A DNA stretch of 64,000 nt. It comes from Spirosoma taeanense. GTDB taxonomy: Bacteria > Bacteroidota > Bacteroidia > Cytophagales > Spirosomataceae. The stretch is from positions 4,650,001 through 4,714,000 of the forward strand of contig NZ_CP053435.1 of NCBI RefSeq assembly GCF_013127955.1, given 5' to 3'. Of this stretch, positions 43,407 through 46,635 are shown in pieces; within the stretch, counting starts at the first letter, position 1; each line of letters starts with the position of its first letter. Made by a program: the position numbers and the translations under genes. The notes beneath the pieces were generated by a model. The model saw only the letters and a list, made by a program, of their open reading frames with translations, had not been told where the DNA came from and did no database searches.

Positions 43407-44522
43407 TTAGTGGAGTATCTCCATTTCTACCAATTCCTCGAACATCTCCTCGCCCACTACTCCTTCAACTGAATCAATCGTGTTCAGATTGAGGAGCAGA
43501 TCGCGCAGATCTTCGGTAATCTCATACGTCTGGTATAACCTTCGGTCAAACAGGATTGGGGCCTGCTCAAGATCGCATAGAGTATAGCGGTCTTCATTGA
43601 AAGCGGGGTGCTCAGGACGCCGGCCATACATGGCATGTTTTGGAAGTTCGGGTTCCAGGAAAGATTGGATGTAATTCCAGCCCTCCCACTGACCAGGATA
43701 ACGGGTCAGGTAAGACCAGAAGGCATCGTACAGTTGCTGCATTGCCTCGCGGCAATACATTTCGCGGTCGCTCTGCCGAATCGGACGGATTGGATCCAGA
43801 CAATGCAATACGTTGGTCAGATCCGGCTGGCGATAACTCACTACGGGCACGATAGGAACACCCGATGTGTGCGACAGATAGCCCACGCCCTTACGTGTCA
43901 GCACGTTTCGCTGCCCGAAACGAACGGAAAGAAGTTTATCTTCCTCGCCGGGCTGCGGAGCCGTTTCGGGACTACCATCTACGTAAACTATCAGCGATCG
44001 ACCGGCTTTTAACTCTCGTAAAATGGTCAGTCCGGCTGAGGCCTGCCCGGTATCTACGATTCGGAACACATTGGTCAGGCCGTGTTTCTGGCGTAGCGCT
44101 TCGATATGCTCCAGCATATCGTCACCCTGGTGGCGGTTCATATTGCTGCCGACCAGTAAGACACAGTCTACGCCCCGGCGAAACAGAACGCTCGTCAGCA
44201 GACGATACGATCCTAAATGATAAGTACAATAAATTCGGGGGCCATCTGGCTTGGTAATCGCTTCTTTCGCCCCGCGAAACTTCACCAGATCGCCGGCCGT
44301 GAGGCACTGCTGATCAAAGGTGGTAAACACTTGCTGCAGCAGCAGTTCCTGAAACAGACGCTCGTGACTGCTGCGGGGGATGAAGGGCATGATATTCTCT
44401 ACGTTGGCGGAGAAAGTCGTGAACTTCATCAGATATCCCCGCTCCTTCCGTAGGTTGACTCGCTCGAAGTGCTCACGACAACGAGCGAGTTCCTGTTTAT
44501 ACAGATGCTGCGCAGATGGCAT
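43407..44522 (-). CDS. LpxL-like acyltransferase with a PqqD-like C-terminal extension
   Basis: A 371-residue protein of the lipid A biosynthesis acyltransferase-like superfamily. Residues 95-290 show IYCTYHLGSYRLL (His102), SLIVYVDGSPETA (about 176-188), IVPVVSYRQ (about 224-232) and YPGQWEGW (about 275-282), where the last is typical of LpxL/HtrB proteins. The usual HX4[DE] acyltransferase motif reads HX4R here, so the catalytic mechanism is uncertain. The last 65 residues (about 307-371: strand ILFDRRLYQTYEI, helix EDLRDLLLNL, helix FEELVEMEIL) look like the winged-helix PqqD/RRE fold that binds leader peptides of ribosomally made natural products; this match is by eye. A 54-residue peptide gene lies 12 bp upstream in the same operon. 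Inference: an acyltransferase acting on that peptide. Confidence 0.8.
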   Translation of the reverse strand: MPSAQHLYKQELARCREHFERVNLRKERGYLMKFTTFSANVENIMPFIPRSSHERLFQELLLQQVFTTFDQQCLTAGDLVKFRGAKEAITKPDGPRIYCTYHLGSYRLLTSVLFRRGVDCVLLVGSNMNRHQGDDMLEHIEALRQKHGLTNVFRIVDTGQASAGLTILRELKAGRSLIVYVDGSPETAPQPGEEDKLLSVRFGQRNVLTRKGVGYLSHTSGVPIVPVVSYRQPDLTNVLHCLDPIRPIRQSDREMYCREAMQQLYDAFWSYLTRYPGQWEGWNYIQSFLEPELPKHAMYGRRPEHPAFNEDRYTLCDLEQAPILFDRRLYQTYEITEDLRDLLLNLNTIDSVEGVVGEEMFEELVEMEILH

Positions 44523-44534
44523 GATTGCTGCTGA

Positions 44535-44699
44535 TTAAAGTGAAAAAGACAGCTTATTCGAAAGCCCCTGAATTGCCATCACCTTGCAGCATTCATCAGG
44601 TTTCATAAATTTGAGCAGATTTGCCGACTCAGACTTGGCAGCAGAGATGATCGTGTTTTTCGATACTTGTACAGCTTTGATGGCGAATGATTTTTTCAT
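44535..44699 (-). CDS. 54-residue peptide, candidate precursor of a modified peptide
   Basis: A frame from the ATG at 44699 to TAA at 44535 encodes 54 residues. It begins MKKSFAIKAVQVSKNT, is rich in Lys (9), Ser and Ala, and carries a Cys pair (CCK at 37-39) after MKPDE, ending in LSNKLSFSL. It was found by reading the strand; it is too short for usual gene calling. Supporting facts: it is the first reading frame after a good promoter at 44772-44802 (leader about 65 nt), and it ends 12 bp before the acyltransferase start. A RiPP precursor has a leader that binds an RRE and a core that is modified; the Lys/Cys content and the partner gene make that plausible. It could instead be an ordinary small protein or leader peptide. 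Confidence 0.65.
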   Translation of the reverse strand: MKKSFAIKAVQVSKNTIISAAKSESANLLKFMKPDECCKVMAIQGLSNKLSFSL

Positions 44700-44771
44700 G
44701 ACGACTGTTTGTTTTGAGATTACCGTTAGTTGTTCTATTTATCGGGTGTTTTATGCCCCGTTTGATAGATA

Positions 44772-44802
44772 CAAAGGTATAGTCGCCACCAAGGGTCATC
44801 AA
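44772..44802 (-). promoter_or_regulatory. Promoter of the peptide-acyltransferase operon
   Basis: On the minus strand, TTG (44802-44800), a 20-nt spacer and TACCTTTG (44779-44772), a full match to the Bacteroidota consensus. The predicted start of transcription is near 44765, about 65 nt before the 54-residue peptide. Confidence 0.75.
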
Positions 44803-44881
44803 TCGCAAAAAAGTCTTAACATTGCGTTGTAGATTAGTCAATAATTACCAGTATATTAGTTCATATTTTTGCTAAGGGCAC

Positions 44882-45904
44882 ATGAAAGTAGTTCAACTGA
44901 CCAGAACTTTCCTGAAGAAGCCGCTATATAGCGTTGCCCTTATTGTAGGGGTTGCTTTGCTGGTAGAAGGCTTGTCATGGACCTCCGCCTTTGATACAAA
45001 AATTAAAATACTCAATAGCTATGGTGGTGCATGGCCGTATGTCAGTCTGCTCTTACGCGGGCTGATTCTGCCTGAGGTTTGCACCGCCTGCATTCTGGTT
45101 TTTCTGGTTAATCAGCATCATATCCGCTTTGGTATCCATTCTGTTGAGTTAACTCCCCGAGCCATAGGACTTTATCAGCTTAGCCTGTTACCAACCGTCC
45201 TTCTGTCGTTCTTTATATTCAATCCCATTACGGAAACGGTCCGTTTTCTGTTAGAACAGTACCCAGCCTATACCTTCTCCGTTTACTGGAAGTCTTACGT
45301 CAGTGGTACGTTTTCCTGGGACATCTATTTCCGCTATCTGATTCCTGTTCTGTTAATCAGCTATTTACCAGTCAATATCTCCCTGTTGTCTGACTATTCC
45401 CAGCAACGGCAACAAGCTCAGGAAGCCGCCGAAGCCAAAGCAGCTCAGGCAGTCCAGGAAGCCCAGGCGGTTATAGCCGCCCGTGCAAGCTCCTCATCGG
45501 TACCTGCACCGACGTATCTGGCTTCCCTTAAAGGCAAAAATTCGCACGGCGAACTCGATTTTCCGGTTGAAGACGTTTTTTATTTCACCATAGAAGAACG
45601 CTATTATTACGCTGAACTAGCCAAAGGCCGCTATCTGGTTGCCAAAACGCTTAACGATCTGGAGGCCGAGCTTGATCCAAGCCGGTTCTTCCGCATCAAG
45701 CGTGATTATATCGTTAACCGAACTGCCGTTCTGAACTATGCTTACTGGGAAAACGGTAAATACATAGTCAGGCTAAACACACCTGATCGGTACGAAATCG
45801 TTGTACCCCGCGCCCGAATGCAAATTTTTCGGGAGTGGCTACAGGGAAGCCAGCAACCGCTCCTCGACGAAGCGGGCACTGGTCCTTTTATGCTTACCGC
45901 CTAG
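44882..45904 (+). CDS. Membrane-bound LytTR domain regulator
   Basis: A 340-residue protein with four predicted membrane helices (for example LYSVALIVGVALLVEGLSW, LYQLSLLPTVLLSFFIF and YLIPVLLISYLPVNISL) followed by an Ala/Gln-rich linker (about 178-205) and a LytTR DNA-binding domain (about 220-325, with EDVFYFTIEERYYYAELA, FFRIKRDYIVNRTAV and YEIVVPRARMQIFREWL). LytTR proteins bind short direct-repeat sites. Here the DNA-binding domain is fused to a membrane part, so the regulator could sense a membrane or peptide signal directly. It is divergent from the peptide/acyltransferase operon with its start 80 bp from that operon's -33 box, a likely regulatory pairing. Confidence 0.88.
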   Translation: MKVVQLTRTFLKKPLYSVALIVGVALLVEGLSWTSAFDTKIKILNSYGGAWPYVSLLLRGLILPEVCTACILVFLVNQHHIRFGIHSVELTPRAIGLYQLSLLPTVLLSFFIFNPITETVRFLLEQYPAYTFSVYWKSYVSGTFSWDIYFRYLIPVLLISYLPVNISLLSDYSQQRQQAQEAAEAKAAQAVQEAQAVIAARASSSSVPAPTYLASLKGKNSHGELDFPVEDVFYFTIEERYYYAELAKGRYLVAKTLNDLEAELDPSRFFRIKRDYIVNRTAVLNYAYWENGKYIVRLNTPDRYEIVVPRARMQIFREWLQGSQQPLLDEAGTGPFMLTA

Positions 45905-46635
45905 AGATAGCTTTTTACCTCAATGCCATACCGGGGCAATTGGCGGCAACTGCTCAAATCCAGTTTCTTCGCTATGTGCGCTTTATGGTTTACGGCCGTA
46001 CGATAGCTAATGCCTAACTCATCCGCTATTTCATTGGCTGTATGTCCGTTTGCAATCATACGTAGTACCTGCCGTTCACGGTCAGTAAGCCGGCTCAGTT
46101 CATCCCGCCTTGCCTCCGACAAAACTTCTACGCCATAATTTTTCAACAGGTTCATAAATCCGCTACTATAGTAACATCCCCCGCTGCTTACAGTCTGGAA
46201 ACAGCGGTACAACTCTTCCAGTCCATCACTGGCATACAGAAAGCCAAAGAAACCCATCTGCATAGCGCGAGCAACCATCCGAAGATCGGGTTTGCTGGTA
46301 TATAGGATGAATTTAGTCTGCATGTTTGACTGCTGCATCTGCTCGACGATGTCAAAGCTGCGCCTTCCGGAGATTTCAGATTCGAGAATAACGCACTGCG
46401 GACGCTTCACCCGAATTTGCTGAAGTGTGTCGTCCATTTCAACAGCACGGCCCACTACGTTGTACCCCTGCTCCTTGAGAAGTTGACTTAACACCTCACA
46501 AGTGAATAGTTCTGACTGCGCAACGAGAATCGAAAAATCCCGGCGACGTAAAGAGAAATTTTTGGTGGCCTCCTGGCCTGTAGATAATTGATTCATGTCT
46601 GTGAGTTCGTATCGGGTGGATGAATCTAACACCAT
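45901..46635 (-). CDS. LuxR-type response regulator with a degenerate receiver
   Basis: A 244-residue protein with a receiver-like domain (about 34-148) and a LuxR/FixJ helix-turn-helix (about 182-240, LTDRERQVLRMIANGHTANE and ISYRTAVNHKAHI). In the receiver the usual acidic pair reads QS (residues 40-41 of ILVAQSE), the phospho-acceptor position is Glu85 (VILES) and the Lys of the switch region is replaced by Ala (GFLYAS), while the Thr in LYTSK is kept. It therefore should not be phosphorylated in the standard way. The gene shares CTAG (45901-45904) with the LytTR gene, each stop overlapping the other. An alternative start is the ATG at 46596. Confidence 0.88.
   Translation of the reverse strand: MVLDSSTRYELTDMNQLSTGQEATKNFSLRRRDFSILVAQSELFTCEVLSQLLKEQGYNVVGRAVEMDDTLQQIRVKRPQCVILESEISGRRSFDIVEQMQQSNMQTKFILYTSKPDLRMVARAMQMGFFGFLYASDGLEELYRCFQTVSSGGCYYSSGFMNLLKNYGVEVLSEARRDELSRLTDRERQVLRMIANGHTANEIADELGISYRTAVNHKAHIAKKLDLSSCRQLPRYGIEVKSYL

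Follow-up and report, generated by a model that had tools for sequence, protein, structure and literature searches.

A conserved gene pair in Spirosoma and its relatives: a short peptide and an LpxM/PatA-fold acyltransferase with a predicted leader-binding domain, a candidate minimal lipidated-RiPP system

A gene for a 54-residue peptide and, immediately downstream of it, a gene for an acyltransferase that carries a predicted RRE at its C-terminus form a conserved pair in Spirosoma and related genera. The reading favoured here, with a probability of about 0.7, is that the two make up a minimal RiPP-type system under local regulation, in which an RRE-guided enzyme of the LpxM/PatA fold would lipidate a ribosomal peptide. 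The pair lies in a window of 64,000 nucleotides from the genome of Spirosoma taeanense (contig NZ_CP053435.1, positions 4,650,001 to 4,714,000), and all positions given below are those of the window.

The peptide and its pairing with the enzyme

The peptide ORF is found on the minus strand at 44535-44699 (MKKSFAIKAVQVSKNTIISAAKSESANLLKFMKPDECCKVMAIQGLSNKLSFSL) and is separated by 12 bp from the ORF of the acyltransferase on the same strand (43407-44522). Among named loci, those closest to the window belong to Spirosoma species. The peptide is directly upstream of the enzyme in all 30 Spirosoma loci examined, with two copies in three of them, and the pair is also present in named genomes of Fibrisoma, Larkinella, Runella, Rhabdobacter, Arundinibacter and Persicitalea, which gives 45 peptides at 39 named loci with the peptide missing at none. 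Within 150 genomes of the family an orthologous enzyme, defined by a threshold of E<=2.2e-65, occurs in 45, and the peptide is found in the same 45, always adjacent and directly upstream. No credible copy of the peptide was found in the other 105 genomes, the sole extra match outside the 45 being marginal (E 0.005) and containing stops, and two further family genomes have only a more distant relative of the enzyme. The co-occurrence of peptide and enzyme exceeds chance, and the arrangement in 45 of 45 genomes is the one expected of a RiPP locus, a conserved short precursor gene, here with an apparent leader and a more variable core, beside its maturase.

The N-terminus of the peptide is leader-like, with a KKxFxIK stretch that is followed by an AKxE motif, and an alignment of 25 sequences from 7 genera has M1, F5, E24 and C38 as invariant positions. 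The context of the Cys is CC in Spirosoma, Fibrisoma and Larkinella and SC in Runella and its relatives, with one Cys that never varies in the window or in the 45 peptides at the 39 loci. Lys22 was considered as a universal acylation site and was rejected, as two Spirosoma peptides have Gln there. By inspection of the aligned peptides no hydrophobic signal segment precedes the Cys, as would be found in a lipoprotein-type signal peptide with a lipobox, and searches of Pfam and NCBIfam with the peptide returned nothing useful.

Over 435 pairs of Spirosoma peptides the mean pN is 0.36 against a pS of 0.71, with pN below pS in 99.8% of pairs, although the ratio is indicative only as synonymous sites are near saturation. 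The value of pN is lowest (0.30) in the first 31 columns, the putative leader, and highest (0.48) after the Cys pair. To judge from these values the frame is under purifying selection and the profile is that of a leader and core, with the variable part C-terminal. The original prediction, which had proposed an uncalled coding peptide next to an acyltransferase and expected it to be conserved beside homologous enzymes, is therefore borne out by the 45 genomes and by the selection on the frame. It had also described the peptide as Lys-rich with a Cys pair, of which the Lys content is not the telling feature and the one invariant Cys is.

The acyltransferase and its C-terminal domain

The enzyme of 371 residues is not readily recognised from its sequence. 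Pfam gave no match, GNAT families included, the NCBIfam match to LpxL is weak and below the cut-off, and no relatives came up when PDB sequences were searched with the enzyme family. The AlphaFold2 model (pLDDT 88.6, pTM 0.86) resembles PatA and LpxM with Z scores of 21-22 over 231-246 residues, the values being 21.8 to 5kn7 and 22.1 to 5f2t, so that the catalytic domain is predicted to have the LpxM/PatA (LPLAT) fold, in keeping with the LpxL-like acyltransferase first proposed for the locus.

All relatives that could be aligned over the relevant positions keep His102, Asp182, Gln278 and Trp282 without change, and a QWExW motif is present in the enzyme. The HX4(D/E) motif has lost its acid and reads HLGSYR in the window enzyme. 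Every orthologue has Arg at position 107, and the distant relatives also have non-acidic residues there, in most cases Arg, Lys or Gln. The title of the LpxM entry 5knk names Glu127 as catalytic, which we take to be the glutamate of HX4E. With this acid replaced by a non-acidic residue, catalysis must therefore differ from that of LpxL/LpxM and another acid is needed, for which the invariant Asp182, as the likely relay acid, is the candidate.

The C-terminal domain (residues 304-371, at 43410-43613 on the minus strand) is predicted to consist of three strands and three helices, and when these residues are modelled alone with AlphaFold2 they give a b-b-b-a-a-a topology with a pLDDT of 92. The first six Foldseek matches in the PDB are RREs of leader-bound lasso-peptide B1 proteins (probability 0.84-0.98), with the RREs of ThcOx, SuiB, CteB and PbtF lower in the list and a few unrelated WW-domain rows in between. 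The Foldseek E-values are weak, at 0.08 and above, as is expected for a tail of only 68 residues, and the case for an RRE therefore draws jointly on ranking, probability and topology. In VIA-align the tail has a Z of 6.5 to 6jx3 (67 residues, 2.6 A) and 6.0 to 5v1v, and eleven of the first twelve rows belong to RREs or to RiPP enzymes that bear one, the exception being row 8, the BmdC oxidase of an NRPS; comparison of the whole enzyme structure also places 5v1v on residues 304-371. The Pfam PqqD model PF05402 has no match to the enzyme or to the tail at E<=10, and an NCBIfam search with the tail gave nothing useful. Alignment with hhalign to PqqD proteins of the class is weak and that to the N-terminal domains of the linked arginases (described below) is somewhat better (P 7e-4), a result on which the RRE claim is not built. 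The model thus gives the tail the b3-a3 fold of an RRE, and it is by fold only that an RRE is recognised on the proposed maturase. The PqqD/RRE tail of the original prediction survives as a fold with leader-bound RREs as its best PDB matches, and not as a match to the PqqD sequence family.

Distant relatives in RiPP clusters

A genome-wide scan for relatives of the enzyme yielded 73 loci. The distant relatives, with roughly 22-31% identity, occur in Bacteroidota and a few Proteobacteria, and mostly keep the tail, which is sometimes shortened. Neighbouring genes were counted by clustering 43 loci, some of them near-duplicates, together with family searches. M50 proteases that are related to the daptide protease and have a PqqD-like N-terminal part are found at 16 of the 43, and arginase-family enzymes, also with a PqqD-like N-terminal part, at 9 (PF00491 at E<=1e-46 in those tested). 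Grasp-with-spasm pairs and radical SAM/SPASM maturases each occur at 3 loci, LanB-type genes at several, and genes of polyene or fatty-acid type at about 17. About 13 of these loci have short precursors, frequently in tandem, whose leader carries an 'ELEERLE'-like motif and whose core contains one Cys or more, with other short Cys-containing ORFs directly upstream at several more, and most arginase loci have an 'RC' pair in the core. The presence of distant relatives in RiPP clusters assigns the family to the RiPP tailoring enzymes on grounds that do not depend on the window.

Some of these clusters are of interest in their own right. A locus in a Spirosoma-type genome (L038:5209-9011) has an M50 protease and the acyltransferase together with five precursors in tandem (LEERLETVELAAEAAYTSC), followed by polyene/flexirubin-type biosynthetic genes that include an ammonia-lyase-like ORF, and this is possibly a RiPP-polyene hybrid cluster. 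Six loci (L079, L089, L097, L099, L100 and L109), one of them in Segatella copri, combine an arginase with the PqqD-like N-terminus, an M50 protease and the acyltransferase with 'RC'-pair precursors, and are candidates for acylated-ornithine or thiomorpholine-type RiPPs; ornithine formed by peptide arginases is an acylation site in selidamides (PMC12703449). At L033:5261-7867 and the related L034-L036 and L094, proteins of about 860 residues adjoin the acyltransferase and fatty-acid/polyene genes. The protein of L033 matches the N-terminal lantibiotic dehydratase domain only, and no precursor was found at these loci.

Promoter and linked regulators

Upstream of the peptide is a promoter with the layout TTG-N20-TACCTTTG, which we take to be the Bacteroidota-type consensus, with the -7 element TACCTTTG at 44772-44779 and the -33 TTG at 44800-44802 on the minus strand; a promoter had already been noted in the original prediction and the assignment stands. 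It is accompanied by a conserved dyad, TRGTNA-N4-TNACTA (44835-44850, minus strand). In 36 of 40 loci its distance from the -7 element is 70-71 bp. This genome has a single instance of the combined dyad and promoter, which is also present in 32 of 36 genomes of the genus, all but one of them with one copy, whilst a reversed control pattern has essentially no matches. A multi-site regulon was considered and rejected, the pattern being found once in this genome and once in most genomes of the genus.

Two regulator genes that had been overlooked when the peptide-enzyme pair was correctly described complete the locus, and both are linked to the pair in all 7 genera. The first (44882-45904, plus strand) is divergent from the peptide and encodes a membrane-bound regulator with about 4 hydrophobic segments and a C-terminal LytTR domain; it holds this position in the window and at 38 of the 39 named loci, the exception being a short contig. 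Of the 45 family genomes that have the enzyme, 40 have a LytTR regulator at E<=1e-40, as against 2 of the 105 others. The second (45901-46635, minus strand) is a response regulator of the NarL/LuxR type, convergent with the LytTR gene in nearly all of those loci. Its receiver has a Glu at the position of the acceptor Asp in 9 of 9 sequences inspected, which suggests a control that is independent of phosphorylation. We infer that the dyad would be bound by the adjacent NarL-type regulator, by the membrane LytTR regulator, or by both. The LytTR regulator's membrane domain also occurs by itself, as stand-alone copies of about 185-197 residues with no LytTR domain, elsewhere in some genomes (G006, G031, G110, G136, G162 and G195).

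Proposed mechanism and alternatives

In the proposed mechanism the N-terminus of the peptide (KKxFxIK) would act as a leader and pair, as an added strand, with the C-terminal RRE of the enzyme. The LpxM/PatA-fold domain, using His102 and probably Asp182 as relay acid, would then move a fatty acyl group, with acyl-ACP the probable donor, onto the C-terminal part of the peptide, where the invariant Cys is the most likely site. The product would be a small lipopeptide that associates with membranes. Transcription would be under local control at the one dyad and promoter, where the NarL-type and membrane LytTR regulators encoded alongside would probably act. The results support the original proposal that an LpxL-type enzyme has been recruited to acylate a ribosomal peptide. 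No protease or exporter/transporter gene is present in the conserved four-gene block, a linkage that is not strict for the RiPP class.

It is also conceivable, if unlikely, that the peptide serves as carrier or scaffold, in the manner of scaffold-peptide pathways, and that its Cys is loaded by the enzyme with acyl or other groups, with the product released later and the peptide itself not the final product. A Cys that never varies would suit loading as a thioester, and relatives of the enzyme are often beside KAS, ketoreductase, dehydratase and AMP-ligase genes of polyene or fatty-acid type. However, the conserved block is without a release enzyme or biosynthetic partner, and the genes beyond it vary among Spirosoma, Larkinella, Runella and others, so that outer neighbours change between genera.

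Little probability is also given to the idea that the enzyme is an ordinary acyltransferase of envelope lipids and the peptide an unmodified regulatory or targeting subunit. The RRE fold and the occurrence of relatives in several types of RiPP cluster speak against it, as do the invariant Cys and the tandem copies of the peptide at several loci, which are typical of substrates, even though the fold is that of the lipid acyltransferases LpxM and PatA and the gene of a membrane-bound regulator adjoins. That loss of the HX4 acid, with the Arg of all orthologues and the mostly Arg, Lys or Gln of distant relatives at position 107, has left a domain that no longer transfers acyl groups and merely binds the peptide is very improbable, since the invariance of His102, Asp182, Gln278 and Trp282 would not be expected and another invariant acid could be the relay.

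With lipidation of the peptide as the preferred reading, a further step can be put forward tentatively, and is doubtful in its entirety, namely that this is a locus of peptide signalling in which the membrane LytTR protein senses the acylated peptide and joins the NarL-type regulator in exerting feedback at the one dyad and promoter. The linked regulators make such a role directly testable and, if true, Bacteroidota would have a lipidated-peptide circuit that stems from a previously unrecorded class of RiPP acyltransferase.

Comparison with known systems

No description of an LpxL-type or lysophospholipid acyltransferase with RiPPs was found in the open-licence literature, an absence that is not proof. 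If the lipidation reading is true, the enzyme would add a third superfamily for acylated RiPPs beside the GNATs and the lipoprotein pathway described in that literature. An acyltransferase fused to its own leader-binding domain, spread across Bacteroidota in several types of RiPP cluster, would widen the range of ribosomal-peptide products, and the two genes would provide a simple tool for lipidating peptides.

The predicted tail has in common with lasso B1, SuiB, CteB and ThcOx the winged b3-a3 leader-binding fold, whereas it differs in being C-terminal, of about 65 residues, on an acyltransferase and missed by the Pfam PqqD model. In selidamides, lipolanthines and goadvionins, the acyl group is added by GNATs to Orn/Lys side chains or to the N-terminus, in most cases alongside lanthionine synthetases (PMC9505594, PMC13060382). 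The likeness is that of a ribosomal peptide fatty-acylated, as is proposed here, by an enzyme encoded beside it, whereas the enzyme here has, in place of a GNAT domain, the LpxM/PatA fold and a predicted RRE of its own, is accompanied by no other maturase, and is paired with a peptide in which one Cys is invariant. DAG-RiPPs, which also come from Bacteroidota, have a signal peptide and are lipidated through the general lipoprotein pathway (PMC12636315); they share with the window their phylum and, as proposed, their lipidation, but the window peptide differs in having no hydrophobic signal segment. The lipid acyltransferases LpxL/LpxM and PatA share the fold (Z 21-22) and the invariant His of catalytic type, and from these the window enzyme is set apart by an Arg in place of the HX4(D/E) acid, the QWExW motif, the predicted C-terminal RRE and a partner peptide.
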